The translations under genes and the position numbers were made by a program. A DNA stretch of 64,000 bases from Planctomycetota bacterium. Its GTDB lineage: Bacteria; Planctomycetota; UBA1135; GCA-002686595. The notes under the pieces were generated by a model. That model searched no databases. It was given only the letters and a program-made list of their open reading frames with translations, and was not told the DNA's origin. Shown one piece after another: positions 1,406-46,709 of the stretch. Location of the stretch: the NCBI GenBank assembly GCA_027083445.1, contig JALWOP010000161.1:1-64000 (forward strand), given 5' to 3'. The first letter of the stretch is position 1. Each line of letters begins with the position of its first letter.

Positions 1406-2929
1406 CTACTCCCCGCTCCCGTCTCGATCCCCGGTGGGGTGCAACAGGGATGGATCGTCGCGGTGGGCCTCCCACCAGGCTCGCAGGGCGGCGATCTCCT
1501 GGCGGTGCTGTGCCGGCGCAGCGTTGCGGTCATAGGGGAGACCAGAGGCTACGTGGGCTTCGAAGTGTTCGAACGCATCACGTCGAGCTCCGCGTGCTTC
1601 GCCGCTCTCCATAAGGGCCAGCAGAATGGGGATTCCCCGCGTATCGCCGAACTCGAGGAGGGTCTCCGCGAGTTCCACCCGCAGATACTCGTCCTCTTCC
1701 CCCGACGCCGCGCTGAAGACCGCGTCGGCGCTCTCCCGATCCCCCAGTTCGCGCACGGCCTGAATCGCGCTCTCGCGCACGTTGTCGTCCTCATCGGAAA
1801 GCAGCGCGAGTAGATCGCTCTCGAACTCCGTCCGACCCTTCTCTCCGAGGATCTCGATCAGGCGTAGCCGCACCTCGAGCTCTCCGTTCGCCAGTAGGTC
1901 ACGCACTTCACCCTCGACCTCTTCGAACTCCTCGGGGTTGGCTTCGAGCTCGGCCAGAGCGATCATGCGCTCGGCGGGGGAGCCGGCAGCCAGCAAGTGA
2001 GCCAGTTCGAGCTCCTTGGTGCGCTCGAAGAACATCGTTCCGCGAATGAAGGCAAGACCCAGAATCGCGTAGGCCACCACCTTGACCAGGGCCTTGCCCC
2101 GGTTGTCCGCCCAGCCGACGAAATGAATGATGCCGGCCAGGAGCAAGAAGGCTCCGAAGCAAACGACAATGACCGGACCGGAGGGAAGATCCCCGTAGTA
2201 AGAGATCGTCACACCGCTGGCGCTGACCAGCGTACCGACGATCCAGCCCAGGGTCAGCCGAGCCCGCACCGACTGGGCGAACAGGATCGCAATCACCGAG
2301 GGGATCACCAGATAGGAGAACACGAGCAGCACTCCCGCGATCGAAACGGAACTCGTCACCACGAAGCCGAACGACACATAGAACAGAAAGTCCCAGAAGC
2401 GCACGTTCATGCCCGCGGCTTCGGCAGCGGCCGGATCCCGGGAGATGGCGAAGAACTGCTGCCGGAAGACGTAGTGGAAAACTCCTATCAACGCGTAAAG
2501 GAGTGCGGTCCAACCGATCGTTGCTCCACTGATCCAGAGAATGCTCCCCGCCTGGAGTTCGCGCAGTTCCTCGGCCCCATGGGGTAGCTTCGAGCTCCCC
2601 AGGATGATCGCGGCCAGAGCCACGGCATAGGTGATCCCGATGAAGGCCTCATGGGGAACCTTCTCGTGCCGCATGCGCGTCAGCGAGAAAAGTGCCGCCC
2701 CCGCGATCGTGAAGGCCAGGGAAAAACCCTTGATGATGAGCATGTTCTCGTGAACATCCCAACCCAGTAGAGCCCCCCAAACCGCTCCGAGGGCGGCAAT
2801 GGTCGCCAATGCAAGGTCGACGAAGATGACCTTGCGTTGGATGACGTGGATACCCAAGTAGACATGGATGCCCGTCAGGATCATGCACGCCAAGAAGGGA
2901 TATGTCATGGAATCCAAGAACTCGGACAT
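1406..2929 (-). CDS. ABC-3 family zinc/manganese permease fused to C-terminal HEAT repeats
   Basis: Inner-membrane permease of the ZnuB/MntB (ABC-3) type for divalent metal uptake. Residues about 8-290 carry the usual 8-9 hydrophobic segments (starting MTYPFLACMILTGI). From about residue 310 to the end the protein is soluble and acidic, with HEAT/PBS-lyase-like helical repeats (VRLRLIEILGE, DDNVRESAIQAVRELGD, YLRVELAETLLEFGD). Usual ABC-3 permeases are about 280 residues, so this is a 507-residue fusion. It is the last gene of the metal operon, 186 nt after the binding protein. No ATPase gene is adjacent. The ATG at 2929 is the only standard start, yet the frame stays open upstream without ATG or GTG and reads like protein (PPYADLYWSPDKA). 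Function of the HEAT tail is unknown. Confidence 0.88.
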   Translation of the reverse strand: MSEFLDSMTYPFLACMILTGIHVYLGIHVIQRKVIFVDLALATIAALGAVWGALLGWDVHENMLIIKGFSLAFTIAGAALFSLTRMRHEKVPHEAFIGITYAVALAAIILGSSKLPHGAEELRELQAGSILWISGATIGWTALLYALIGVFHYVFRQQFFAISRDPAAAEAAGMNVRFWDFLFYVSFGFVVTSSVSIAGVLLVFSYLVIPSVIAILFAQSVRARLTLGWIVGTLVSASGVTISYYGDLPSGPVIVVCFGAFLLLAGIIHFVGWADNRGKALVKVVAYAILGLAFIRGTMFFERTKELELAHLLAAGSPAERMIALAELEANPEEFEEVEGEVRDLLANGELEVRLRLIEILGEKGRTEFESDLLALLSDEDDNVRESAIQAVRELGDRESADAVFSAASGEEDEYLRVELAETLLEFGDTRGIPILLALMESGEARGARRDAFEHFEAHVASGLPYDRNAAPAQHRQEIAALRAWWEAHRDDPSLLHPTGDRDGSGE

Positions 2930-3115
2930 GGCTTTATCGGGGCTCCAGTAGAGGTCGGCGTAGGGCGGGAGCGGGGTGGTCGTCGCAGGAACGGCGAGCG
3001 CAGGCGGGGAGATCCCTCGCCCGCGCCCGCCCAGGAAGGTTCAACTCGAAGTTGCCGCGCACCTTCCCGGATCGATCGCGTTGGGCCACCGGTAGGAGAA
3101 AGAACGCATGGCGGG

Positions 3116-4201
3116 TCAGTCCTTGCGGGTTTCGGATTCCACGAGGCGCGTGATGAGGTTGTCCATCATCGCGAAGTAGTCCGGCACCCCAACGCTCTCC
3201 CCGACATCGATCGGTAGGGAGAGGAGGTGGGCCCCGGTCTTCTGGGCAAGGTAGGTGCCTGCGGTCCGATCGTGGTAGATCGCTTGCAGAATCGTGCGTA
3301 CCCCCTGCTCGCGCATGACGCCCAACACCCGGTCTCGCTGCTTGGCCGAGGGGGGGATCCCCGGCTTCTCTTCGATCTCGATGGGAATGGTGAACCCGAA
3401 TCGCGTCGCCAGATAGATGAAGGTCTTGTGATAGGTGACGATGGGCCGTCCGGCTAGGGGGGCGGCCTTTGCAAGCCACCCTCCGAGCATCTCCGTGAGC
3501 TCTCGATGCTCGAGGTAGTCGGAGAGACGGCCGCCCTTCGCCAGCCGATCGAGCTTTCGGCCACCCACCTCATCCACGAGTTCCGCGCCGTATAGCGCCA
3601 CGTCGATGCGGTGGCGGAAGTCCGCCAAGTTGTCCTCGTAGGTCTGCTTGTGGGCTCCGTCCAGCTCTTCGAGAGCTGTGGCGATATTCCCAGCCAGGAT
3701 CTTTGCGTTGAGTGGGTCCAGCCAGACATGGGGATTGCCATAGGGGTGTACGTCCCCCCACTCCCGGCTCAGGACGGTTGGAAGCTCCAAGGTCTGGACC
3801 CCGGTCGAGGCGATCACCCTTCCCGGCTGTCCGATCTGGATCTTGGGATTGCCCGATCCCGAGACGACTTTTTCGCCCCAGAGTTCGAGCTGCAGCCCAC
3901 ACTCGACGAAGAGATCCGCGTCCCGTGCCTTCTTCATCAGGATCGGAGTCGGCTGGACGTAATGCGGATCCTGGTTGGGAAGTGCGAGGGAGTCCACGCT
4001 GACAAACTCCCCCCCTACCTGTTTGGCCAGGTCGGCCAGGACCGGCAGGGTGGTCAGGATCTTCAGGGGAGCAACCGGCACGGCGGCCGGCTCCGCAGTT
4101 CGTTCACCTTCCGGGAGATGCGGTCCGGCAAGGGCTGTTCCCGCCCCCAGGAGGAGAGCCGCGAGGAGGAGAGAATGCCGAAGAGAGTTCCGTGATTGCA
4201 T
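3116..4201 (-). CDS. Periplasmic zinc/manganese-binding protein of ABC transporter (ZnuA-like)
   Basis: Solute-binding protein of the cluster 9 (ZnuA/MntC/PsaA) family, delivering divalent metal to the ABC-3 permease. Seen: signal peptide ending ALAG near residue 25; metal-ligand histidines at His80 (QDPHYVQP), His158 (NPHVWLDP) and His258 (TYHKTF), with an acidic ligand candidate near residue 311. Total 361 residues, normal for the family. There is no long His-rich loop, which in ZnuA proteins marks zinc preference, so the metal (Zn or Mn) is left open. It starts 10 nt after the porin gene stops, so the two are very likely co-transcribed. Confidence 0.9.
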   Translation of the reverse strand: MQSRNSLRHSLLLAALLLGAGTALAGPHLPEGERTAEPAAVPVAPLKILTTLPVLADLAKQVGGEFVSVDSLALPNQDPHYVQPTPILMKKARDADLFVECGLQLELWGEKVVSGSGNPKIQIGQPGRVIASTGVQTLELPTVLSREWGDVHPYGNPHVWLDPLNAKILAGNIATALEELDGAHKQTYEDNLADFRHRIDVALYGAELVDEVGGRKLDRLAKGGRLSDYLEHRELTEMLGGWLAKAAPLAGRPIVTYHKTFIYLATRFGFTIPIEIEEKPGIPPSAKQRDRVLGVMREQGVRTILQAIYHDRTAGTYLAQKTGAHLLSLPIDVGESVGVPDYFAMMDNLITRLVESETRKD

Positions 4202-8387: not shown

Positions 8388-9908
8388 CTACTTGGCGTAG
8401 CGCTTCTTGAAGTCCGCAGCGGCCTTCGCGCGCCTTGCGGCTTCTTCTGGATCCATCTTACCGATGAACCACTTGTGGTCGTCGGAGTTCAGAACCTCTT
8501 CGATCTTCGCCTTCAAGGCCTCTGCCGCCTTGACGCGGTCCGGGTCCTCGGAGTTCAGGTTCTTCTCGGCCAGCTCCTCGAGTTCAGGGATGTAGTCCGT
8601 GTAGAAGTGCTGGGCGATCTCGTAAGTGCCGTGCCAGTGGGTGTAATCCGGCCCCATCATCGATGCGGCGTGACGCGCACGGCGACCTTCGTGGTGCCAG
8701 AGCTCGAACCAGATGAAGTCCAGCTTGTTGCCGAACTTGACCGGCTTCAAGAGGGGCTTGGCCGCTGCATACAGCGCCGCACCCGGCTTGGCGAACTTGT
8801 TGTTGTAGAGGTCGATGAGAGCGTCGTACTGGGTGTAGAAGTTCTCGATCCAAGGTTTGCTGTGGCAGGCGGAGCAGACATCTTTCATGTTCTGCCGCCG
8901 CACCTGCCAGGGCACATCCTTGCCCGGCAGCCCCATCTTGCCGTCCGAGACCTCGGGACGAATCGAAGTAACCGGGCGGTTGTTCCAACTGATCCGCATC
9001 CCGATGTCATGGGTTACGGGCTGGTTGCGGGTCTCGGACATGTGACAGGTGGCACAGGTCGGAGCCGCGTGGTAGTCCTCACCGACGATCCACTTGGAGG
9101 AACCCAAGTTCATCTTGTCGATGTTCGCCGCATAGGCGATGCCGTGCTTGGACTCTTCGTAGATCTCCTTCTGAGGGTGGTCGGGACCCAGGTGGCACTT
9201 GCCGCAGGTCTCCGGCTGGCGGGCCTGGGCGACCGAGAAGGAGTGCCGCGAGTGACAGGCCGCACAAGAACCTTCCGAACCATCGGGGTTGAGCCGACCG
9301 ATGCCGGTGTTGGGCCAGGTCGAAGGATCGAGACCGCCTCCGGGGAGAACCTTGATCTGGGAGCCATGGCACTGCCAGCAGCCGCTGGCCGCCGCGGCCG
9401 AGACTCCTTCAGGGTGCCCCGGGGTTACGAAAGCCGAGTTGCCTTCGACCACCTCGGCCAGGACGTTGTCCAGCGAGCCCAGGATGCGCCCCGCCTTGGC
9501 GTGGTGAGAGCCGATGAATTCCTCGGTCTCCCTGGTGTGACAACGGGCACAGTCCTTGGGACTGACGATGACCGAGATCGTGAAGTCGTAGTGCCGCATC
9601 GCGTCGGGGTCGTCCCTGCGCGCGGCGTGGCACTCGTAACAGCCGACGTTTCCGCGGTAGTGCTTACTCTCGCCCCACTGCGCGTAGAGCCCAGGGCTCT
9701 CCTTGCGGTGACAGTCGATGCACTCTCGGGATTCCTTGCTGATCTCCTTGAGGCCGATCGCTTGGGGTGCGACCGGGGTGACGAGGGGTTTGGTGGTAGC
9801 TGTAGATGTCGATGCGGACGGGAGGGGTGCGTCCCCGCTCGCGCCGAACGCGATACCCACTAGCGGCACGAGGCCCAGGCCACCGATGATGACCGGGTTG
9901 AATCTCAT
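8388..9908 (-). CDS. Octaheme c-type cytochrome of the hydroxylamine oxidoreductase (HAO) family
   Basis: Periplasmic multiheme enzyme, 506 residues, signal peptide cleaved near AFGA/S23. Eight CxxCH motifs at Cys63, 90, 120, 177, 215, 235, 285 and 345. All are CxxCH; none is the CxxCK that marks NrfA or octaheme nitrite reductase (ONR). Spacing, the THDIG pair (His300-Asp301, matching the catalytic His/Asp of HAO) and the C-terminal HHEGRRARH...DYTHWHGTYE region identify the HAO family. Family members oxidise hydroxylamine or hydrazine, or run in reverse to reduce nitrite or NO. The start overlaps the NrfD stop by 4 nt, and it is the last gene of a quinol-linked operon divergent from nap, so nitrite reduction is the favoured role (inference). 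Confidence 0.88.
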   Translation of the reverse strand: MRFNPVIIGGLGLVPLVGIAFGASGDAPLPSASTSTATTKPLVTPVAPQAIGLKEISKESRECIDCHRKESPGLYAQWGESKHYRGNVGCYECHAARRDDPDAMRHYDFTISVIVSPKDCARCHTRETEEFIGSHHAKAGRILGSLDNVLAEVVEGNSAFVTPGHPEGVSAAAASGCWQCHGSQIKVLPGGGLDPSTWPNTGIGRLNPDGSEGSCAACHSRHSFSVAQARQPETCGKCHLGPDHPQKEIYEESKHGIAYAANIDKMNLGSSKWIVGEDYHAAPTCATCHMSETRNQPVTHDIGMRISWNNRPVTSIRPEVSDGKMGLPGKDVPWQVRRQNMKDVCSACHSKPWIENFYTQYDALIDLYNNKFAKPGAALYAAAKPLLKPVKFGNKLDFIWFELWHHEGRRARHAASMMGPDYTHWHGTYEIAQHFYTDYIPELEELAEKNLNSEDPDRVKAAEALKAKIEEVLNSDDHKWFIGKMDPEEAARRAKAAADFKKRYAK

Positions 9909-11185
9909 GACTGGGGTTCTCCTTTCGGTTTGGAAGCCATTTTGAGCCGTTTGGCCCAGGGAGCGTGCGCAACGCTCCCGCGCAAATAGAGTCGATCGAT
10001 CGCCAGCCTCCCGGAAAGAACCGGAATGCTGATGCGCACGAAAATGGTGAAGAGCAACAACCCGAAGGCCCAGATACCCAAACTGACGAGTATCTCATTC
10101 CAGGTCGGGGTGTATTCGACGATTTCGCCCAGCGGCGAGGGGATGAAGGCCGGAATGATCAGGCCCATCCCCTTCTCAATCCAGATCCCCACGATCAGGG
10201 CCAGGCACCCGATGTTGAGATACTTGAGGCTGAGCTCCACGGGGAGGAGCAGGACGCCCAGGCCGATCAGGTCCAATGCAATAGCCGACCAGATCCAAGG
10301 GACCAGGCCGGAGTGGCCGTGCAATCCCAGGAAGAGGTAGCGGGCAGAAGCTCCATGCGCCGAATCGGTGTAGAACTCGGTGAAGACCTCGCAGGCCAGG
10401 AGGAACATACTGATGATCATCGCCACCGTGACGATGTTGCGCAGGGTCCGAATCGCCTTCTCAGGCACTTCGTACTCCGTAAAGCGGTCGATGATGCGCA
10501 GGGCGATGATCAGTACGGCCGGACCGCCGGCGAAGGCCGAGGCCAAGAAGCGCGGGGCAATGATGGCCGAATTCCAGAAAGGACGCCCACCCAAGCCTAC
10601 ATAGAGGAAGGCCGTAACGGTGTGGATGCTGACGGCCCAGAAGATGGCGAGGAAGACAAAGGGGATGTAGAAGATCCGGCTCGGCTTGCGGTGGCGGTAG
10701 GCGCAGTAGATGAGGTAGCCGCAGATATGCAGGTTGAGTAGGAGGTAGCCCGAGAGAACGACCACGTCCCAGGTCAGCATCGAGATCGGGAAGTGAAAGC
10801 GCAGGAACAGGTGATGGGCCCGGTCGACGCGCCCCAGGTCCACCGTCACGAAGAGCAGACACATGATGATCGAGGCCACGGCGAGCAACTCGCCGAAGAT
10901 CACCAGGTCATGCAGCTCCTTGTTGCGGTAGATGTAGACGGGGATCACGAGCATCACCGCCGAGGCGGCCACCCCCACCAGGAAGGTGAAATTCGCGATG
11001 TAAAGGCCCCACGAGACCTGATCGGTCATCCCTGTCGTCGCCAGACCGTAGACGAACTGCCGGCAGTAGGCGTTCAGCCCCAAGAGGGAGAGAACCGTCA
11101 ACAGGGTCATCCACCCCAGGTAGCGCCAGTCTCCGACGAAACTCAGCCGGAAGCAGCGGCGTAGGAAGCGCAGGTACTCCTTCAA
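9905..11185 (-). CDS. nrfD: NrfD/PsrC-family quinol-interacting membrane subunit (DsrP/HmcC-like)
   Basis: Integral membrane protein of 426 residues with about ten hydrophobic helices and a basic cytoplasmic tail. The length and helix pattern match the longer NrfD-family branch (DsrP, HmcC) rather than the shorter PsrC type. Members bind quinol or quinone and pass electrons to an attached iron-sulfur protein. It overlaps the ferredoxin gene by 4 nt upstream and the octaheme gene by 4 nt downstream, so all three are translationally coupled. Predicted role: take electrons from the quinol pool for the octaheme enzyme. Confidence 0.88.
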   Translation of the reverse strand: MKEYLRFLRRCFRLSFVGDWRYLGWMTLLTVLSLLGLNAYCRQFVYGLATTGMTDQVSWGLYIANFTFLVGVAASAVMLVIPVYIYRNKELHDLVIFGELLAVASIIMCLLFVTVDLGRVDRAHHLFLRFHFPISMLTWDVVVLSGYLLLNLHICGYLIYCAYRHRKPSRIFYIPFVFLAIFWAVSIHTVTAFLYVGLGGRPFWNSAIIAPRFLASAFAGGPAVLIIALRIIDRFTEYEVPEKAIRTLRNIVTVAMIISMFLLACEVFTEFYTDSAHGASARYLFLGLHGHSGLVPWIWSAIALDLIGLGVLLLPVELSLKYLNIGCLALIVGIWIEKGMGLIIPAFIPSPLGEIVEYTPTWNEILVSLGIWAFGLLLFTIFVRISIPVLSGRLAIDRLYLRGSVAHAPWAKRLKMASKPKGEPQS

Positions 11186-12171
11186 CGATCCTCCTCCATC
11201 GCTCGGACTTGCTCATCGGTGCGCGGGTAGCGCTCGTCGAAGTAGTAGAAGAAGCGCGGCATGGTCCCGACTTCGGCCTTCAAGATGAAGACGCGCTTGT
11301 TGCGCAGGATCTGTGCCACCTCGCTCTCGGGATCGAGGACGTTGCCGAACTTGCGCGCCCCGACTGGGCAAACCTCGAGGCAGGCAGGCAGACGCCCCTC
11401 ACGAGTACGATGGAGGCAGAAGGTGCACTTCTCCATGACCCCCTTCTCCCGTGGACGGTTCGAGAGGTAGGCCATGTCCGGGTTGACATCTTCGGGGGGC
11501 AGGGTCGGCTCGGCGTAGTTGAAGCGCCGTGCCCAGTAGGGACAGGCCGCCTCGCAGTATCGGCAGCCGATGCACCAGTCGTAGTCGATGACCGTAATCC
11601 CGTCGGGCTCCTGCCAGGTGGCCTCCACCGGGCAGACCTTGACGCAAGGGGGGTTCTTGCACTGGTGGCACTGCACCGGCATGTAGAAGTGCTCGTCGTC
11701 CGGGACAGCCTCACGGTCGTAGTGATGATCGGACATCTCCACGTCCAAGGTCCCCTTGGGGAGCTCGAGCACACGGATGTACTGGATCTCCGGCGAACGG
11801 CTCTGGTTGTTCTCGGCCACGCAGGCATGCACACACTTGCGGCATCCGATGCAGCGACTGAGGTTCAGGGCGTAGACGAACTCAACCCCCTCCTGGGGCT
11901 TGACGTCTTTGACGGTCACCTCGACGCCCGTGCGTTGCTCGACCTCCTTCTCTATGCGCTGCAGGGCTTCGTTCATCTCCTCTGGGGACATCTCCTTGTA
12001 GTGCTTCTGCAGCAGCTTCTGGATCGAGGGCAGGTCGTCGCCTTCGAGATCCTTGAGAGGAGAGAGGGCTCCCGCCACGGCGGCGGTGGCGCCGGCCACG
12101 GTCAAGCCTCCCTTGAGTACGCCGCGCCGCGTCGGTTCGGAAGAGTCGGGGGTGGGGGAAGGATCAGTCAT
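11182..12171 (-). CDS. Tat-exported ferredoxin with four [4Fe-4S] sites (DsrO/HmcB/NrfC-like)
   Basis: 329 residues. The N-terminus has a twin-arginine signal (TRRGVLKGG, then a small-residue hydrophobic stretch), placing it on the periplasmic face. Four cysteine groups follow: CIGCRKCVHAC, CHQCKNPPCVKVCP, CIGCRYCEAACP and CTFCLHR...CLEVCP, the DmsB/NrfC/DsrO pattern for four [4Fe-4S] clusters. An insert of about 90 residues precedes the first cluster and looks helical and charged. It is the electron wire between the NrfD subunit and the cytochromes encoded on both sides. It overlaps the tetraheme gene stop by 8 nt. Confidence 0.92.
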   Translation of the reverse strand: MTDPSPTPDSSEPTRRGVLKGGLTVAGATAAVAGALSPLKDLEGDDLPSIQKLLQKHYKEMSPEEMNEALQRIEKEVEQRTGVEVTVKDVKPQEGVEFVYALNLSRCIGCRKCVHACVAENNQSRSPEIQYIRVLELPKGTLDVEMSDHHYDREAVPDDEHFYMPVQCHQCKNPPCVKVCPVEATWQEPDGITVIDYDWCIGCRYCEAACPYWARRFNYAEPTLPPEDVNPDMAYLSNRPREKGVMEKCTFCLHRTREGRLPACLEVCPVGARKFGNVLDPESEVAQILRNKRVFILKAEVGTMPRFFYYFDERYPRTDEQVRAMEEDR

Positions 12172-12799
12172 GGTCGGATGGCCCCGTGCGCATGTGCTTC
12201 AGCAGGGGATCTTCCGGGGCGGGTTCCCCGTGACCGGGGTCGCCCATGCGCAGGGTGTGCGGGCCCGGGAGGGGCTTTAGGGTGGGGAAGGCGGGTGAGT
12301 GGGGATCGTGACACTGGGTGCAGACCAAACGGCCTCGCTCGGGTCGCTTCGGATCCCAGCTCCCGGTCGAGCGCCCGTGCATGCCGCGTTCCCAGTCACG
12401 GTAGGTCGGCCCGTGGCATTTCTGGCAGAGCAGCTCGACCTGGTCGTAGCCGATCTCCTGTTCCAGGTAGAGCACCAGCCGGTCGCGGTGCTTGTTCGAG
12501 TGGCAGTTCGAACACTGGTTGTTGATCCCGTGGCGCAGGTGAATCTCCCCGTGTTGCAGACGCTCGCCATCGGTCACGAGCGGGGTGTCGAACAACTTGT
12601 GGCAATCCGAGCAGCGCTGCTTCAGCCCCCCGATCTCGATCGTGGGAGGGTCGGGAAAGATGGTTCGGCGCGGGGAGGGATCGATGTCCGCGGGCGAGAC
12701 CGAAGCCGCCGGCTCCAGATCGGGCAGCGTGGGCTGGGGTCCGACGAAGAACCAGAGGGCTAGCCCGAAGAAGACCACCGGGATGGCTAGGTTCGACAT
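12164..12799 (-). CDS. Membrane-anchored tetraheme cytochrome c
   Basis: First gene of the octaheme operon. Starting at the ATG at 12799 the protein has 211 residues and opens with a membrane anchor (MSNLAIPVVFFGLALWFFV). An in-frame ATG at 12820 adds seven residues ahead of the anchor and is less likely. Four CxxCH heme sites: CSDCHKL, CSNCHSN, CQKCHGP and CTQCHDP. It is not a NapC/NirT protein by sequence; the arrangement cytochrome - ferredoxin - NrfD recalls DsrJ-DsrO-DsrP and Hmc complexes. It likely sits between the ferredoxin and the octaheme enzyme. Confidence 0.82.
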   Translation of the reverse strand: MSNLAIPVVFFGLALWFFVGPQPTLPDLEPAASVSPADIDPSPRRTIFPDPPTIEIGGLKQRCSDCHKLFDTPLVTDGERLQHGEIHLRHGINNQCSNCHSNKHRDRLVLYLEQEIGYDQVELLCQKCHGPTYRDWERGMHGRSTGSWDPKRPERGRLVCTQCHDPHSPAFPTLKPLPGPHTLRMGDPGHGEPAPEDPLLKHMRTGPSDHD

Positions 12800-12877
12800 G
12801 CTTGGTGGGGGGCAGGTCATGGGGAAGCGCCGGGCAGGGAATGGTGCCTAGCGGGAGTGGAGAAGGTATCGGGTGAA

Positions 12878-12897
12878 GCCTTCCCGGTCGGGAAGGC
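12878..12897. promoter_or_regulatory. 8-bp perfect inverted repeat in the nap/octaheme divergent promoter region
   Basis: GCCTTCCC and GGGAAGGC flank a 4-nt spacer, between the divergent tetraheme and napD genes. A second small palindrome, TACCC-TC-GGGTA, is at 13003-13014. No FNR-like TTGAT-N4-ATCAA is visible in the gap. Either repeat could be an operator for coordinated control, or an mRNA hairpin. Confidence 0.4.
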
Positions 12898-13067
12898 GAT
12901 CGGCCTACCCGAGAAGGACCAAGTGCGTAGCCGACCACCTGCGAAGGTCCTACGGACCCGCAACCCGAAGAGTACGCACAGCGAGTCATTCGCTCCGCCC
13001 CCTACCCTCGGGTATAGCTGCGGTCGATACGTCGTGCTTGTCACGCGCCCAACAAGGAGATCCCGCC

Positions 13068-13319
13068 ATGGTCACGATCGGTGTCCTCGTTCGCGTGGAC
13101 CCAACCCAAGAACCCGAGACCGAAGCGCGCCTCGGAGTTCTGGAAGGCGTCCAGCTCATTCCCCTCGAGGAGCCCCACACCCTGGGCGCAGTGATCCAAG
13201 CCGAGGATCTCGACGAGGCCCACGAGCGCCTCGTCACCCAGGTCCAAACCCTGCCCGGCGTGCTCTGTGCCTGGCCCCTGCACACCGAGCTCGCGTCCAC
13301 CCCCCCGTCGCACAACTGA
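13068..13319 (+). CDS. napD: NapD-family chaperone for nitrate reductase maturation
   Basis: 83 residues, about the family's usual length. NapD binds the Tat signal peptide of NapA and holds it back until the molybdenum cofactor is inserted. The start at 13068 is chosen for the AAGGAGA ribosome site 9-15 nt upstream and because the longer open frame (from 12873) would run through the promoter. Seen: a ferredoxin-like alpha/beta pattern and the conserved LPGVLCAWPLHTEL ending, equivalent to the family's GVL..SLVYH. It lies 7 nt before napA, which fits its role. Confidence 0.88.
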   Translation: MVTIGVLVRVDPTQEPETEARLGVLEGVQLIPLEEPHTLGAVIQAEDLDEAHERLVTQVQTLPGVLCAWPLHTELASTPPSHN

Positions 13320-13326
13320 GCCAACC

Positions 13327-15633
13327 ATGCAGATCAATCGAAGAGACTTCGTCCGCATCTCCGCCGCCACCACGGCTGCTGCCGCGGGCGGGCCGGCCGT
13401 CGCAGCCGCCGCAAGGCCCCGCGCAATCGAGTGGCACAAGTCCGTCTGCCGCTTCTGCGGAACGGGCTGCGGCGTTCAGATCGCCGTCGACAACGGCCGC
13501 CTAGTCGCCCTCCGAGGCGACCCCGAGCACCCCACCACCAAGGGACTGGTCTGCGCCAAGTCGCTCTTCCTTCCCAAGATCGTCCACTCCCCCACCCGTC
13601 TGAAGTATCCGATGATCCGCAACGCAGCCGGGGAGTTGGAGCGGGCTACCTGGGATCAGGCGATGGATCTGGTCGCCGACAAGTTCGCCCAGGCCATCCG
13701 TGACCACGGTGCCGACAGCGTCGCGTACTACGGATCCGGCCAGGCCCTCTCCGAGGAGAGTTACTACGCCAACCGTCTCTTCAAGGGAGGGATCGGAACC
13801 AACAACGTCGAGGGCAACCCCCGGCTCTGCATGGCCAGTGCCGTGGGCGGCTATGTGACGACGTTCAGCAAGGACGAACCCATGGGCTGCTACGACGACA
13901 TCGATGCGGCCAATACCTTCTTCCTGATCGGCTCCAACACTGCCGAATGCCACCCGGTCATCTTCGACCGCATCATGGCCCGCAAGCAGTCGAACCGCCG
14001 TACGACGGTCATCTGCGTCGATCCGCGCAAGAGCCCTGTCCAGACGATTGCCGACCTCTACCTGCAGCCCAAACCGGGCTACGACCTGGCACTCCTGCAT
14101 GCGATGGCGCAGGTGATCATCGAGGAGAAGCGCTACGACGAGGCTTTCGTCGCTCAGCACGTCAACTTCAAGACCGTCGTGGACGGCAAACCCCTCGCGG
14201 TCGGCTTCGACGACTACCGGGAGTTCCTGGCCGACTGGACGCCCGAGAAGGCCGGCGCAGTCTGTGGCGTGAACCCCGAGTCCATCCGCGAAGCGGCACG
14301 CCTGTTCGCCAGCGGTCCGACGACCTCCTTCTGGACCATGGGGCTCAACCAGCGCGTGCACGGGGTCTGGGCCAACAACCTGGTCCACAACCTGCACCTG
14401 CTCACCGGACAGATCGGCAAGCCCGGGGCAACCCCCTTCAGCCTCACCGGTCAACCCAACGCCTGCGGCGGGGTGCGCGACACCGGTTCCCTGTGCCACA
14501 TCCTGCCCTACGGTCGCGTCGTCAAGAAGGCCGAGCACCGCGCCCAGATGGAAGCGATCTGGGGCTGCAAACCGGGTACGATCCAGCCCAAGCCGGGACT
14601 GAACACGATCGAGATGTTCAAAGCCCTGGGGGAAGGGAAGATCAAGGCCATGCTGGTCTTGACCACCAACCCCGGCCAGTCCCTGCCCAACCTGAACAAG
14701 CACCGCAAAGCGATGGCGGGAGACTCGTTCCTCGTGGTGCTCGATGCGTTCCCGACCGAGACGACCAAGATCGCCGACGTCGTCCTGCCGGCTGCCATGT
14801 GGACCGAGAAATCCGGCGTCTTCGGCATGTCGGAGCGGCGTTACCAGTACCAACCGAGCGTGGTCACCCCACCGGGAGAGGCCCGCTCTGACTATGCCAT
14901 CCTGGTCGACTTCGCCCGGCGCCTGGAGGCACGCGGCGCGATTCCCAAGGGCTATGCGACCGGCAAGCTCTCGACGACCGATGACTGCTGGGAAGAGATG
15001 ATGCAGGCTTCGAAGGACACGGCCTATGACTTCCGCGGCATGCCCCGAGAGCGACTCAAGCGGGAGCGCGGTGTGCGCTGGCCGGCCCCCACGGTCGATC
15101 ATCCCGGCACCGCTCGTCGCTACGTCAAGGGCGAGGACCCCCTGCTCGACAGCGGCCCCTACGCCGACGCCAGCCTCGAGCCGGGCGATGTGAAGTTCTA
15201 TGCCGCCGCCGATGGCAAGGCCAACATCTGGCTGCGTCCCGTCGTCGGCCCCGCCGAACCGCCCGATGCGGAGTACCCCTTCGTGCTCTCGACCGGCCGG
15301 GTGCTCGAACACTGGCACACGGGAACGATGACCCGAGCCGCCGCCGAGCTGCGCCGCGCACAGCCCGAGGCCTTCGTCGAGATCCACCCCAAGGATGCCA
15401 AGGCCCTGGGCATCCGCACGGGCGACCGAGTCGACATCGAGTCCCGACGGGGACGCTCCACGATCAAGGCTCGCGTGGTCGACATGCCCCAGCCGGGAAT
15501 GGTCTTCGTGCCCTTCCACTGGGATGACGAGGGCAGCCTGATCAACGAGGTCACGATCGACGCCTATGACCCCGGATCGAAGCAGCCCGAGTTCAAGATC
15601 TGCGCCGTCCGACTCTCGAAGGCCAAGTCATGA
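13327..15633 (+). CDS. napA: Periplasmic nitrate reductase catalytic subunit NapA
   Basis: Molybdenum enzyme reducing nitrate to nitrite in the periplasm; 768 residues. Tat signal NRRDFVR at residues 4-10. The N-terminal [4Fe-4S] site is Cys41-x2-Cys44-x3-Cys48-x27-Cys76. The presumed molybdenum ligand is Cys168 in PRLCMASAVGGY, the NapA signature (formate dehydrogenases have Sec/Cys in a different context), followed by the typical DEPMGCYDD. The C-terminal molydopterin-binding domain is complete (LSTGRVLEHWHTGTMT near residue 657). The start at 13327 places the Tat motif at the N-terminus; the open frame from 13267 is an overlap with napD. The stop overlaps the next gene by 4 nt. Confidence 0.95.
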   Translation: MQINRRDFVRISAATTAAAAGGPAVAAAARPRAIEWHKSVCRFCGTGCGVQIAVDNGRLVALRGDPEHPTTKGLVCAKSLFLPKIVHSPTRLKYPMIRNAAGELERATWDQAMDLVADKFAQAIRDHGADSVAYYGSGQALSEESYYANRLFKGGIGTNNVEGNPRLCMASAVGGYVTTFSKDEPMGCYDDIDAANTFFLIGSNTAECHPVIFDRIMARKQSNRRTTVICVDPRKSPVQTIADLYLQPKPGYDLALLHAMAQVIIEEKRYDEAFVAQHVNFKTVVDGKPLAVGFDDYREFLADWTPEKAGAVCGVNPESIREAARLFASGPTTSFWTMGLNQRVHGVWANNLVHNLHLLTGQIGKPGATPFSLTGQPNACGGVRDTGSLCHILPYGRVVKKAEHRAQMEAIWGCKPGTIQPKPGLNTIEMFKALGEGKIKAMLVLTTNPGQSLPNLNKHRKAMAGDSFLVVLDAFPTETTKIADVVLPAAMWTEKSGVFGMSERRYQYQPSVVTPPGEARSDYAILVDFARRLEARGAIPKGYATGKLSTTDDCWEEMMQASKDTAYDFRGMPRERLKRERGVRWPAPTVDHPGTARRYVKGEDPLLDSGPYADASLEPGDVKFYAAADGKANIWLRPVVGPAEPPDAEYPFVLSTGRVLEHWHTGTMTRAAAELRRAQPEAFVEIHPKDAKALGIRTGDRVDIESRRGRSTIKARVVDMPQPGMVFVPFHWDDEGSLINEVTIDAYDPGSKQPEFKICAVRLSKAKS

Positions 15634-16346
15634 AGATCCCCCTCTCCCTTCTCACCCTGGCCCTAGCGGCGGTTCCCGCCTGTCAGGAAAGCGTGCCCGA
15701 GCCGGACGCCGCAACCGTGGAGGTGGCGGAGCCGGTGCCCCCCGCCGGACCGTCAACCCAGGTACCGGCGACACAGGAACCGGCAGTGAGCGACAGCTCC
15801 CAGCCCAGCGCGCCGGTGGCCGCGGTTCGCGAGGCTCCCCAGGGCGCACGCGGTGAGAGGATCGCCGCTCCCAAGGCCCAGAAGGACGAAGCACAGGAGG
15901 CGGTCGCCTTCGTCGACTTCGCGCCCCATGCCTTCCCGCCGACCCTCCCCCACGACGACAACCACGCCGACCCCTGGTCCGCCCAGACCTGTCTGCTCTG
16001 CCACTCCCGGGGAATCGGAGATGCTCCCCGTGTGCGCCACTCGGGCATGTCGGGCGAGTTGATCAAAGGCAATTGCCGCTCCTGCCACCTCCCCCGGGGG
16101 GGCGAGGAGGAACCCTTGACCGAAGCAGGGTTCAGCGCCAACGCCTTCCCGCCCCTGCTCCCCGGTGACTCCTCGCACAGCGGGGCGTGGATGCGGGATG
16201 ACTGCCTGCTCTGCCACGAGAGCGGAACCCGCAGGGCTCCTAGGGTGAGGCACAAGGGCATGTCCCCCCTCCTCCTCAAGGCGCGCTGCCGCTCCTGTCA
16301 CCTGCCGGGAGCTCCCTCCATCGATGCAAACGCGAGCGGAGACTGA
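15630..16346 (+). CDS. napB: Tetraheme NapB-like cytochrome made of a tandem duplicated diheme unit
   Basis: Periplasmic electron carrier to NapA, 238 residues. A signal with a possible lipobox (VPAC, Cys18) is followed by a Pro/Ala/Glu-rich linker to about residue 90. Then two similar units: FPPTLPHDDNHADPW...CLLCHSRG...APRVRHSGM...CRSCHLP and FPPLLPGDSSHSGAW...CLLCHESG...APRVRHKGM...CRSCHLP. Each resembles one whole diheme NapB core (CLxCHxxG-AP-H-CxxCHxP). Ordinary NapB has two hemes and about 150 residues, so this is an internal duplication giving four hemes. Its ATGA overlap with napA and 23-nt overlap with napG show tight coupling. Confidence 0.85.
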   Translation: MKIPLSLLTLALAAVPACQESVPEPDAATVEVAEPVPPAGPSTQVPATQEPAVSDSSQPSAPVAAVREAPQGARGERIAAPKAQKDEAQEAVAFVDFAPHAFPPTLPHDDNHADPWSAQTCLLCHSRGIGDAPRVRHSGMSGELIKGNCRSCHLPRGGEEEPLTEAGFSANAFPPLLPGDSSHSGAWMRDDCLLCHESGTRRAPRVRHKGMSPLLLKARCRSCHLPGAPSIDANASGD

Positions 16347-16920
16347 ATCCGCCGGACCCCGCCCCAGTCGCCGGCTGCTCCTGGCAGCGGTCGGTCTGGG
16401 GATCGGGGCGGGAGCGGGGACCCTCGTGCGCGAAGGCGGGCGCCACGGGGGAACCTACCTGCGTCCCCCCGGGGCCGCCGCCGACTTCCTCGCCACCTGC
16501 CTGCGCTGCGGCCTCTGCGCAGAGGCCTGCCCGGTGGATGCCATCGCCATGGCAGGGGTCGCGGCGGGAACCTCCTACGCGACGCCGACGATCGATGCGC
16601 GCGAAGCACCGTGCCGGCTCTGCGCCGGCTTCGACGAGCTACGCTGCACGGCCGTCTGCCCATCGACAGCCCTGTCGGCCCCCGCGAGTCGCCGGGAGGT
16701 ACGCATGGGTGTTGCCCGCATCGATACCGACCGCTGCCTGGCATGGCTCGGGGTGGTCTGCCGCGCTTGCTGGCACGCCTGCCCCTATCCGGGGGAGGCG
16801 CTGGCCCTCGATGAGCGCACCCGACCCAGCGTCGTGGAAGAGGTCTGCGTGGGTTGCGGGATCTGCGTCCACGCCTGCCTGACCGAAGAGAGCTCGATCC
16901 AGGTCACTCCCGCGTCATGA
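16324..16920 (+). CDS. napG: NapG-type ferredoxin, Tat-exported, four [4Fe-4S] sites
   Basis: 198 residues, MauM/NapG family. An N-terminal twin-arginine signal (SRRLLLAAVGLGIGAG) directs it to the periplasm. Cluster motifs: CLRCGLCAEACP, CRLCAGFDELRCTAVCP, CLAWLGVVCRACWHACP and CVGCGICVHAC, in the NapG order. With NapH it forms a quinol dehydrogenase supplying NapA, and here it would replace the absent NapC. It overlaps the NapB-like gene by 23 nt and napH by 4 nt. Confidence 0.93.
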   Translation: MQTRAETESAGPRPSRRLLLAAVGLGIGAGAGTLVREGGRHGGTYLRPPGAAADFLATCLRCGLCAEACPVDAIAMAGVAAGTSYATPTIDAREAPCRLCAGFDELRCTAVCPSTALSAPASRREVRMGVARIDTDRCLAWLGVVCRACWHACPYPGEALALDERTRPSVVEEVCVGCGICVHACLTEESSIQVTPAS

Positions 16921-17723
16921 TTCCCCGCTGGACGATCGCACGGCGGGCGTCCGCCGCCGCCTTCCTCTCCTGGCTGGCACTGGGCTGGGGCATCCAAGGC
17001 TCCTCGGTGGCCACTCGTATTGCGGACAGCCTGCCCTTCACCGATCCCCTCGCTGCCCTGGAGGTCAGCCTCGCCAGCGGAGAGTTGCATCCCCACCTCT
17101 GGATCGGGGCGGGAGTGGTGCTCGGGATCACGCTGCTCCTGGGTCCGATGTTCTGCGGCTGGCTCTGCCCGCTGGGACTCCTGCTCGACCTGGCTCACTC
17201 GCTGGAGAGACGTGTGCGCCGGCTCATGCACCGGCACGTGGGTGTGGAGCGCAGGCTCCCGCCGCGCACGCGCATCCTGACCCTGGCCCTGGTGCTGGGC
17301 TTCGCCGCCACTTCGGGCCTGCCCCTGTTTCAGCTCATCTCCCCCATCCACGCCATCGGACGGGGCATCGTCCTCGGTTTCGACGTTGCCCTGGGTCTGG
17401 TCGCGCTCCTCTTGGTGGTCGAGATCTTCGTTCCCCGGGTCTGGTGCCGGGCCCTGTGCCCCCTGGGTGGGCTCTACGGCTGGGTCGGCAAGCATGGTCT
17501 CTTGCGGGTCCGGATCGACCCCGAGCGGGCAGGTCAGATCCGCTGCCGGCGGTGCGACGTGGCCTGTCCCGCCGGCATCGCGGTCATGGAGGAGTACGCC
17601 CTGGGTGGAGCCACCTCCGTCGTCGACGAGGGCTGTATGCGCTGCGGCGCCTGCACCGAGGTCTGCCCCCGGGGAGTGCTGCACATGGGCCTTGGCGCTT
17701 CCCGGAAGAGGCGGGAGAATTAG
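16917..17723 (+). CDS. napH: NapH-type quinol dehydrogenase membrane subunit
   Basis: 268 residues with four or five membrane helices. Two membrane-loop CxxxCP motifs typical of NapH/NosR/CcoG (MFCGWLCPLG and WCRALCPLGG), then two [4Fe-4S] motifs in the cytoplasmic tail (CRRCDVACP and CMRCGACTEVCP). The ATG at 16917 overlaps the napG stop (ATGA). It oxidises menaquinol and passes electrons to NapG. It is the last gene of the nap operon. Confidence 0.93.
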   Translation: MIPRWTIARRASAAAFLSWLALGWGIQGSSVATRIADSLPFTDPLAALEVSLASGELHPHLWIGAGVVLGITLLLGPMFCGWLCPLGLLLDLAHSLERRVRRLMHRHVGVERRLPPRTRILTLALVLGFAATSGLPLFQLISPIHAIGRGIVLGFDVALGLVALLLVVEIFVPRVWCRALCPLGGLYGWVGKHGLLRVRIDPERAGQIRCRRCDVACPAGIAVMEEYALGGATSVVDEGCMRCGACTEVCPRGVLHMGLGASRKRREN

Positions 17724-32382: not shown

Positions 32383-34065
<1,683 letters not shown>

Positions 34066-41903: not shown

Positions 41904-42824
41904 TTGATCCTGCGCCTGGCCACCCGCGCCATGGGGACGCGCTTCGAGCTCGTCCTCTCCGGCGACGACCCCGTTTACTTGCGTGCGACCGGAGAGGAAG
42001 CGCTGGCCGAGATCGAACAGGTCGAGAGCAGGCTGTCGCTCTTTCGGCGCGACAGCCTGCTCTCCCACATCAACCGTGTGGCCCACGCCGCGCCGGTACG
42101 CCTCGACCTGGACACCTTCGGGCTCTTCGAGACCATCGACCGGACGGTACGGGAATCGCGGGGGGCCTTCGATCCAACGGTCGCCCCCTTGATGCGCAGC
42201 CTCGGTCTGCACGGCGAGGATTCCGGAGCACCCTTGCTGGACTTGGCGGATGCCCACGCGCTCGTCGGCTGGGACTCCGCCATCCTGCTCGATCCGAACG
42301 AGCGCAGCCTGCGCTTCACCCGCGAGGGCGTAAGCCTCGACCTCGGGGGGATCGCCAAGGGACACGGCCTCGACCTCGCGGCGACCAGCCTGCGTGAGAA
42401 CGGTATCTTGAGCGCACTCCTGCATGGGGGCACCAGCAGCATCGTCGCCCTGGGGGCGCCGGAGGGCCGGCAGGGTTGGTCTATCGCCCTCGGCGGCGAA
42501 ACCCGACCGGTCACCGCTCTCTTGCGGGATGCTGCTCTGTCGGTCTCCGCCCCCTCGGGGCGCCGCGCTGTCGGTCCCCTCGGTGAGGTGCACCATCTCG
42601 TCGACCCCCGCAGCGCACGCCCGGCGAAGGGGTCCTCCCAGGCGGCGGTCATCGCAGCGCAGGCCGCGACGGCGGATGCCTGGTCCACGGCCCTGGTCAT
42701 CGACCCCGCCCTGGCACCCGGCCTGCCCTTCGAGAACCTGCTCACCGGGGAAGGATCGTGGAGCCACAACCTTCCCCCCTCCTCTCCCACCACCCCCCGC
42801 TTTCGACTTCCGCAAACCGTATGA
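41904..42824 (+). CDS. apbE: FAD:protein FMN transferase (ApbE family)
   Basis: 306 residues from a TTG start. ApbE attaches FMN covalently to Thr residues of flavoprotein targets such as NqrBC/RnfG/NosR. Seen: RAMGTRFELVLSG at the start (an ATG is 8 codons in), SLFRRDSLLSHIN, LDLGGIAKGHGLD (nucleotide-binding core), LHGGTSSI and STALVID. Length is normal. There is no N-terminal lipobox, so the site of action is uncertain. It overlaps the next gene by 4 nt. Confidence 0.9.
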   Translation: MILRLATRAMGTRFELVLSGDDPVYLRATGEEALAEIEQVESRLSLFRRDSLLSHINRVAHAAPVRLDLDTFGLFETIDRTVRESRGAFDPTVAPLMRSLGLHGEDSGAPLLDLADAHALVGWDSAILLDPNERSLRFTREGVSLDLGGIAKGHGLDLAATSLRENGILSALLHGGTSSIVALGAPEGRQGWSIALGGETRPVTALLRDAALSVSAPSGRRAVGPLGEVHHLVDPRSARPAKGSSQAAVIAAQAATADAWSTALVIDPALAPGLPFENLLTGEGSWSHNLPPSSPTTPRFRLPQTV

Positions 42825-45173: not shown

Positions 45174-46709
45174 TCAAGAGGCCAGCTTCCCCACGACCGC
45201 TTCGGCGGCGGAGACCAGGTCGCCGCTGCGTAGGATGTCGCTAACTGCGACCAGGTCGGGGTGCAGGTAGCGGTCCTCGTCCAGGGCTGGGACGGTGGCG
45301 CGCAAACGATCGTAGGCCGCACTCGCTCCCCGACCCGCGCGCAGTTCCCTGTGGAACTCCCTGGCCTGCCCGGCACAGAGCCATTCGATCGCCAGAACCT
45401 GCTCGCAATTGCCCAGCACCTCGCGTGCACGCCGTGCCGCGGTGACTCCCATCGAGACGTGATCCTCCTGATTCGCGCTGGTCGGCACGCTGTCCACCGA
45501 GGCGGGGTGGGCCAATCCCTTGTTCTCGCTCACCAGGGAAGCCGCCGTGTACTGGGCGATCATCAAGCCGGAATGGAGGCCCGCGTGGGGTGAGAGGAAA
45601 GGCGGCAGGTTGGAAAGATCGGGATTGACGAGCTGTTCGATGCGCCGCTCGGAGACGTTGCCCAGGGTACAGCTCGCCAGGCAGAGGTAGTCCTGGGTCA
45701 TCGAGAGGGGCTGACCGTGGAACATGCCCGCCGAGAAGACCTCGCCCGTCTCGGGTATGACGAGCGGGTTGTCGGTAACCGCGTTGAGTTCGTGGGAGAG
45801 TACCTCGGTGACGTGGGCCAGGGCCGTCTTGAACGCTCCGTGGATCTGGGGAATGCAGCGCAGGGAGTAGGGATCCTGCACGCGGTCGCAGTCCGCGTGG
45901 GAGCGCAGGATTTCGGAATCCTCGAGGCAGGCACGCAGATTCGCCGCGGTGCGGCGGTGCCCTTCGTTGTCCTTGAGGTCGGCGAGAAGATCCTGAAAGG
46001 GCCGCGCGGAGCCGAAGAGGGCCTCCACCGAGAGCGAGGCGATGACGTCCGCGGATTTCGAGAGGGTGCGCGCCCGCAGCACGTTCATCACCCCGATGGC
46101 CTTCATGCACTCCGTGCCGTTGATCAGGGCCAGCCCCTCCTTGGCCTCGAGCACCAGAGGCCCGATCCCAATCCGGTTCAGGGCCTCGCAGGCCGGGAGT
46201 CGCTCCCCTTGCAAGCTCACCCAACCGACCCCCAGGTAGGCTGCGGTCAGGTGCGCCAAGGGAGCGAGGTCTCCGCTGGCCCCCACCGAGCCCTGCTGGG
46301 GAACCTCGGGGACGAGACCCGCATTGAAGAAAGCGGCCAGGGCCTCGACCAGGGCGACCCGCACCCCCGAGCACCCCCGCAGGAGAGAGTTGAGCCGCAG
46401 AACCTGCATGATGCGCACCTCCGCTGGGAGCATCGGCGGGCCGACCCCAACGCAGTGGGAGAGAACCAGGTTGCGCTGGAGGGCGGCCAGGTCCCCGCGA
46501 TCGACGGCCACGTTCTTCAGTCGACCGAAGCCCGTCGTCAGCCCATAGACGGCTCCGCCCTCTGCGATGATGCGCTCGACCATCTCGCGCGACGCGCGCA
46601 CACGCTCCAGGGCGGCGCTGGAGATGGCCAGGCGTAGCTCCTCTCCGCGGGCGAGCGGTGCCAGATCATCGAGGGAGAGGGAGCGTCCATCCAGGGTGAG
46701 CGTCTTCAT
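45174..46709 (-). CDS. hutH: Histidine ammonia-lyase
   Basis: 511 residues, full length. First step of histidine breakdown: histidine to urocanate plus ammonia. The MIO cofactor triplet Ala144-Ser145-Gly146 lies in GSVGASGDLAPLAH. Also seen: the YGLTTGFG motif, GKEGLALINGTE-like EAKEGLALINGTECMKAIG, and the QDPYSLRC-type VQDPYSLRCIPQ. Its product feeds hutU 11 kb away. Confidence 0.97.
   Translation of the reverse strand: MKTLTLDGRSLSLDDLAPLARGEELRLAISSAALERVRASREMVERIIAEGGAVYGLTTGFGRLKNVAVDRGDLAALQRNLVLSHCVGVGPPMLPAEVRIMQVLRLNSLLRGCSGVRVALVEALAAFFNAGLVPEVPQQGSVGASGDLAPLAHLTAAYLGVGWVSLQGERLPACEALNRIGIGPLVLEAKEGLALINGTECMKAIGVMNVLRARTLSKSADVIASLSVEALFGSARPFQDLLADLKDNEGHRRTAANLRACLEDSEILRSHADCDRVQDPYSLRCIPQIHGAFKTALAHVTEVLSHELNAVTDNPLVIPETGEVFSAGMFHGQPLSMTQDYLCLASCTLGNVSERRIEQLVNPDLSNLPPFLSPHAGLHSGLMIAQYTAASLVSENKGLAHPASVDSVPTSANQEDHVSMGVTAARRAREVLGNCEQVLAIEWLCAGQAREFHRELRAGRGASAAYDRLRATVPALDEDRYLHPDLVAVSDILRSGDLVSAAEAVVGKLAS

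Follow-up and report, generated by a model that had tools for sequence, protein, structure and literature searches.

Which enzyme takes over the nitrite formed by a periplasmic nitrate reductase (Nap) when the nap genes adjoin a gene for an octaheme cytochrome c of the hydroxylamine oxidoreductase (HAO) superfamily? The question is raised by a locus of a Planctomycetota bacterium on contig JALWOP010000161.1 (assembly GCA_027083445.1, positions 1 to 64,000; this 64,000-nucleotide stretch is referred to below as the window). Nine genes at 8388–17723 make up two divergent operons there, the nap operon on the plus strand and a four-gene octaheme operon on the minus strand; all nine, together with their back-to-back orientation, had been listed in the original prediction, made from the sequence alone, and were found in place. 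Here it is argued that the locus probably represents a two-enzyme periplasmic nitrate respiration island leading from nitrate via nitrite to ammonium. The source genome is a 4.79-Mb draft in 477 contigs (86.6% complete), in which absence was tested family by family.

Linkage of the nap and octaheme operons

Conserved linkage and co-occurrence among relatives lend good support to the view, put forward in the original prediction, that the two operons act together as one pathway. In a set of 154 genomes/species of the class, with NapA counted at ≥42% identity, octaheme homologues were found in 61, NapA in 36 and both in 32, i.e., the octaheme is present in 32 of the 36 NapA-bearing genomes (Fisher p 3.7e-12, uncorrected for kinship). 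The comparison of gene order showed that the linkage recurs: the octaheme and NapA genes lie ≤10 kb apart in 25 of the 32 genomes possessing both. Ten of these 25 carry an octaheme of the window type and 15 a second, membrane-anchored type (about 47–51% identical, as read from coordinates); two NapA lineages and two octaheme lineages occur in all four pairings. The arrangement itself varies, e.g., in G114 the octaheme gene, about a dozen nt from napD, heads a six-gene nap operon, in four other genomes (G082, G084, G139, G141) nap and the four-gene module share one strand, and in a Sedimenticola metagenome-assembled genome (MAG) the octaheme gene stands immediately before napA.

The genes for the DsrO- and DsrP-like partners of the octaheme (see below) are conserved as well. 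A scan of GTDB genomes returned at least 473 relatives; among the best 80, which were kept and include a few from class genomes already counted, both genes occur ≤4.5 kb from the octaheme gene at 57 loci, or at 52 of the 63 loci with enough upstream DNA. The loci with the module are titled Planctomycetota (including a Scalindua), Verrucomicrobiota, Hydrogenedentota, Bdellovibrionales, Myxococcota and Deltaproteobacteria, bearing in mind that MAG titles can err.

These data bear directly on the possibility that two unrelated operons have become neighbours by chance. In seven of the 32 genomes with both, the operons do lie apart on the assembly, but well under 1% per genome would be expected to fall within 10 kb at random; the four lineage pairings and the position of the octaheme gene at the head of nap (G114) or directly before napA (Sedimenticola) speak against chance as well. 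It is excluded because the DsrO and DsrP genes accompany the octaheme gene so often, and we regard this reading as refuted by conservation, with next to no probability left to it.

The octaheme cytochrome and its predicted electron supply

The octaheme protein is the predicted terminal nitrite reductase of the island. It has no CxxCK motif and no match to PF02335 (Cytochrom_C552), i.e., neither of the marks by which NrfA or ONR would be recognized. Its best PDB match is the octaheme of Ignicoccus hospitalis (4qo5, 5.6e-56). A Foldseek search with an AlphaFold model built on an 89-row alignment (predicted local distance difference test score, pLDDT, 87) likewise retrieved 4qo5 first (E 8.5e-21), followed by the reductive enzyme of Kuenenia (6h5l) and then by HAO and HDH, with nothing else at E <0.001. 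According to this model, the protein has the HAO fold, not that of OTR. An earlier model, built from 21 close orthologues, reached a pLDDT of only 50 and was discarded.

The catalytic heme of oxidative HAOs bears a cross-link to a tyrosine (Tyr467 of the N. europaea enzyme). In the anammox HAO from a Scalindua genome aligned to 4fas, the cross-link tyrosine is that of GGWTY, at residue 467; the corresponding position of the window octaheme is taken by W425 (ungapped match to the 6h5l type) or by H424 (gapped alignment with the cross-linked HAOs). All 84 octahemes compared have Trp at the position of W425, and Y422, the sole tyrosine close to this position, is replaced by Ile or Trp in five of the 84. 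At the same time, the distal pair Asp267-His268 of HAO is retained as D243/H244 in every one of them. Hallmarks of the oxidative HAO and HDH enzymes, namely eight CxxCH motifs, the HAO fold and the Asp-His pair, are therefore present in the protein and the cross-linking tyrosine is not. The enzymes closest in both sequence and structure, 4qo5 and 6h5l, share the fold and the eight hemes and have no tyrosine at the cross-link position; still, the distal pair is D-H in the window octaheme and 6h5l and D-V in 4qo5, and 6h5l comes from an anammox bacterium and a different complex. In a quick tree, HAO and HDH, as well as the 6h5l-type sequence, are placed relative to these octahemes on very long branches. 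From these features we infer a reductive direction of catalysis.

The claim that the octaheme has a quinol module of its own is supported, with a correction as to its kind. The membrane component does belong to the NrfD family, but not to NrfCD proper: it falls into the DsrP branch (NCBIfam DsrP 417 bits at a cut-off of 350 vs. 19 bits for NrfD), and the best NCBIfam match of its Fe-S partner is DsrO (183 bits vs. a cut-off of 200), hence the module is DsrOP-like. The membrane protein is the predicted quinol oxidase, the Fe-S protein, judging from its cysteines, probably carries four [4Fe-4S] clusters, and the tetraheme cytochrome, which has no NCBIfam DsrJ match, is predicted to serve as a relay to the octaheme in an NrfB-like role. 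The resemblance to DsrMKJOP is confined to the relatives of DsrP and DsrO as a membrane module, whereas a tetraheme stands in place of the triheme DsrJ, DsrMK is absent from the octaheme operon and no DsrAB was found in the genome. Similarly, NrfABCD of E. coli combines a quinol-oxidising NrfD-type protein, a four-cluster ferredoxin, a multiheme relay and a multiheme reductase, but the latter is the pentaheme NrfA with CxxCK instead of an octaheme with the HAO fold, and its membrane part is not of the DsrP branch.

As for the nap operon, the best PDB matches of its catalytic subunit are NapA proteins of 723 aa (2jio, 820 bits over the full length) vs. 403 bits for the best formate dehydrogenase, and the Mo-ligand Cys, the Fe-S Cys and the twin-arginine translocation (Tat) signal are all in place. 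Its score of 693 is below the NCBIfam NapA cut-off of 904, the nearest relative being the shorter 723-aa NapA; judged by its sequence, the subunit is a genuine NapA. The original prediction gave (napB)2 at this place, and the duplication of the NapB-like unit is real; it lies within one 238-aa protein with two diheme units. A single 102-aa diheme protein occupies this position in G114.

All gene assignments (Table 1), NapD excepted, rest on profile or PDB matches. Successive genes overlap, as had been claimed, by 4, 4 and 8 nt in the minus-strand operon and by 4, 23 and 4 nt in the plus-strand one, and a 7-nt gap separates napD from napA. No FNR-box-like site was found in the intergenic region (best candidate with 4 mismatches in 10). 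The flanking genes code for an M13 peptidase and a TrkH transporter, so the island is limited to nine genes.

Table 1. Features of the nap–octaheme island, by position in the window
Feature	Position	Strand	Remarks
HAO-superfamily octaheme c-type cytochrome	8388..9908	-	506 aa; N-terminal signal sequence; eight CxxCH
DsrP-branch NrfD-family membrane protein	9905..11185	-	426 aa; about nine hydrophobic segments (simple plot); PF03916
DsrO-like Tat-exported ferredoxin	11182..12171	-	Tat motif TRRGVLKG; 16 Cys in four groups of four
Tetraheme cytochrome c, N-terminal membrane anchor	12164..12820	-	First gene of the module; kept in relatives
Divergent intergenic region	12821..13067		247 bp
NapD-like maturation chaperone	13068..13319	+	PF03927, E 3.5e-4, under the Pfam cut-off; recurs before napA in relatives
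NapA, catalytic subunit of periplasmic nitrate reductase	13327..15633	+	768 aa; Tat signal; Mo-ligand Cys168
NapB-like electron-transfer subunit, tandem duplicate	15630..16346	+	Four CxxCH; signal sequence
NapG, Tat-exported ferredoxin	16324..16920	+	PRK09476 NapG, 135 bits (cut-off 269)
NapH, membrane quinol dehydrogenase subunit	16917..17723	+	NapH, 164 bits (cut-offs 213-234)

A proposed route from nitrate to ammonium

In the proposed pathway, NapGH would oxidise quinol and deliver electrons via the duplicated NapB to NapA, in keeping with what is known of these families; reduction of nitrate to nitrite in the periplasm by NapA is, on family grounds, a strong assignment. By analogy with the architecture of NrfABCD and DsrMKJOP, a second flow of electrons would run from quinol through the DsrP-like protein, the DsrO-like ferredoxin and the anchored tetraheme to the octaheme, with possible charge translocation by the DsrP-like subunit. 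The octaheme would reduce nitrite, most likely with six electrons to ammonium. That nitrite is its substrate we infer from the nap linkage, the active site and a probable relative from Beggiatoa.

This relative is the orange octaheme of Beggiatoaceae, BOGUAY_0691, a 511-aa protein encoded downstream of napA/napB and capable of nitrite reduction in vitro at 0.003-0.31 umol/min/mg (PMC6449678). Its orthology to the window octaheme is probable by way of Thiomargarita, whose octaheme (L178) is 68% identical to the latter; neither the Thiomargarita nor the Sedimenticola octaheme has a DsrOP-like module by tblastn.

The inventory of other nitrogen enzymes points in the same direction. The original prediction had noted no NrfA or hydroxylamine reductase in the window, which was borne out and extends, for NrfA and Hcp, to the whole draft genome, where copper NirK was not found either; Hcp was detected in 1 of the 154 class genomes, with five controls positive. 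The reported lack of NapC is less clear-cut at the genome level, since weak partial matches to the NapC/NrfH family occur there, in longer frames only. No NIR_SIR protein was found in the genome (11 of 14 controls positive), hence there is no siroheme nitrite reductase or DsrAB, and there was no AMO match, a weak negative because no control was positive. The three heme-copper matches are of the aa3 type, of the cbb3 type and unclassified, respectively, and none is identifiable as NorB; the former two suggest that the organism probably respires oxygen, too. With no other nitrite reductase found in the draft, the octaheme is the sole candidate, and the missing cross-link tyrosine and the activity of the Beggiatoa relative fit this role as well.

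Similar islands have been described. Thermosulfurimonas dismutans and Dissulfuribacter thermophilus, which produce ammonium from nitrate without NrfA, possess an 11-gene nap cluster with a four-gene locus proposed in 2017 to function in nitrite reduction, with sulfur metabolism as the alternative (PMC5276818). As in the window, their nap genes adjoin those for an HaoA-homologous multiheme protein, an NrfD-family protein, a 4Fe-4S protein and a membrane cytochrome c, a match of the window to the published description of the Thermosulfurimonas locus, not to its sequence; their Nap, however, includes NapM and no NapB (napMADGH), in contrast to the duplicated NapB-like protein and divergent operons of the window. 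The likeness to Epsilonproteobacteria drawn in the original prediction (Nap plus an HAO-like enzyme) is loose, since their route requires a NapC/CycB donor and Hcp (PMC3701875), not found here. The Nautilia route, of the reverse hydroxylamine:ubiquinone redox module type (reverse-HURM; PMC3701875), uses Nap, an octaheme and CycB, and Deferribacter has nap-linked Hao/Hcp clusters (PMC6896113); common to them and the window are Nap, the HAO-family octaheme and the lack of NrfA, but neither the CycB of Nautilia nor Hcp was found in the planctomycete. The ammonium production in Thermosulfurimonas and Dissulfuribacter, the lack of Hcp and the lack of a recognisable NorB favour ammonium as the most likely product.

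Several points weigh against this reading. The planctomycete evidence comes from gene sequences; a gene reported absent may lie in a gap of the draft, and the NirS search, in which no control was positive either, shows nothing either way. In some relatives, nap or the DsrOP-like module is missing while the octaheme is present. Ferousi et al. (2021) reportedly found that a cross-link-free HAO homologue works as a reductase converting nitrite to nitric oxide (NO), and PMC10732223 cites the Kuenenia enzyme to this effect. The native Beggiatoa octaheme oxidised hydroxylamine and hydrazine as well, the nitrite activity of the recombinant protein was weak, and a homologue-bearing organism, 'Ca. Thioglobus autotrophicus', failed to grow with nitrite as the sole acceptor (PMC6449678).

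The main rival is a quinol-fed nitrite reductase of the Kuenenia kind, forming NO to be released or handled elsewhere. Besides the cited activity, it can invoke two features that the octaheme shares with the 6h5l type, the second structural match: both lack the cross-link and have the Asp-His pair. We consider it unlikely, since none of the heme-copper matches is identifiable as NorB, NO would be toxic if a quinol complex were dedicated to forming it as the end product, and the identity to anammox octahemes is only about 24-27% over the alignment. Distinctly less probable is a route of the reverse-HURM type, as proposed for Nautilia and Deferribacter with their Nap and Hao (PMC3701875, PMC6896113), where the octaheme would yield hydroxylamine and another enzyme would reduce it to ammonium: Hcp, the expected enzyme, is nearly missing from the class, and the NapC/NrfH-family matches are weak and partial.

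An oxidative octaheme, scavenging hydroxylamine or NO and passing electrons to the quinone pool via the DsrOP-like module, would accord with the in vitro activities of the native Beggiatoa enzyme, but the absent tyrosine, the linkage to nitrate reduction genes and, weakly, the lack of an AMO match leave little room for it. Equally little credence is due to a sulfur-compound reductase (acting on tetrathionate, sulfite or polysulfide) placed beside nap by happenstance. The DsrP/DsrO type of the membrane and Fe-S subunits would suit such a function, and the case of OTR shows that octaheme enzymes may also act on sulfur compounds (PMC6449678); against it stand the HAO fold of the octaheme, the lack of DsrAB or any other NIR_SIR protein in the genome and the linkage to nap in most class genomes having both.

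Related loci and significance

Certain relatives deserve mention in their own right. An expected avoidance between NrfA and the octaheme was not significant, with NrfA in 4 of 26 genomes with the window-type octaheme (Fisher p 0.49). Four octahemes (L080, L082, L084 and L090 from G039, G009, G089 and G035) cluster together in the quick tree with a support of 92, show no adjacent DsrOP-like module by tblastn (L080 ends about 1.3 kb past the gene) and come from genomes three of which encode NrfA; possibly, these octahemes have a different role. The anammox Scalindua G154 (L185, L189-L196) has the octaheme and the module besides its HAO, HDH and 6h5l-type octahemes. L108, from G093, the only genome of the 154 with Hcp, has a long insert and diverges more than any other octaheme of the class. 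The octaheme is also carried by the OFTM MAGs from the Oslofjord tunnel (PMC10732223; L159, L111, L129, L137, L143, L148, L172, L186). One of them, OFTM5 (L159), was named with hao and hox, its group being putative anammox (PMC10732223); the octaheme detected there belongs to the family that lacks the cross-link tyrosine, which speaks against hydrazine oxidation by the product of this gene.

Elsewhere in the window, a urocanase and an aromatic amino acid (histidine-type) lyase, about 11 kb apart (32386-34065 and 45177-46709), probably serve histidine degradation; an ApbE family protein (41904-42821) is flanked by two GFO/IDH/MocA oxidoreductases, and an ABC-3 family permease ending in HEAT repeats (1409-4201) adjoins a ZnuA-like binding protein.

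Nitrite reduction by a nap-linked octaheme is not a new idea: it was proposed earlier (PMC5276818, PMC6896113), and the activity was documented for Beggiatoa (PMC6449678). The present analysis adds the assignment to the DsrOP type, the finding that the tyrosine is missing, the distribution over several phyla and the statistics on coupling. No description of the complex in Planctomycetota was found in the literature searched, which covered papers outside subscription, and the survey of NrfD-like complexes by Calisto and Pereira mentions neither octahemes nor hydroxylamine. We tentatively suggest, with somewhat more doubt than conviction, that the complex of octaheme, tetraheme and DsrOP-like proteins, which most annotations currently label hydroxylamine oxidoreductase, is a distinct and widespread counterpart of NrfA that ammonifies nitrite in Planctomycetota, Verrucomicrobiota and several further phyla, possibly conserving energy via DsrP.

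To tell gaseous loss of nitrate from its retention as ammonium, nirK/nirS are usually weighed against nrfA. If the complex ammonifies, NrfA-based surveys overlook it in both Planctomycetota and Verrucomicrobiota, and genes labelled hao, read as a sign of nitrification or anammox, would indicate the opposite process. A concrete test is now possible, since the cassette (four genes), the residue (W425) and the product assay are all defined. Overall, the recurrence of the complex across phyla suggests an under-recognised means of nitrogen retention in ecosystems.

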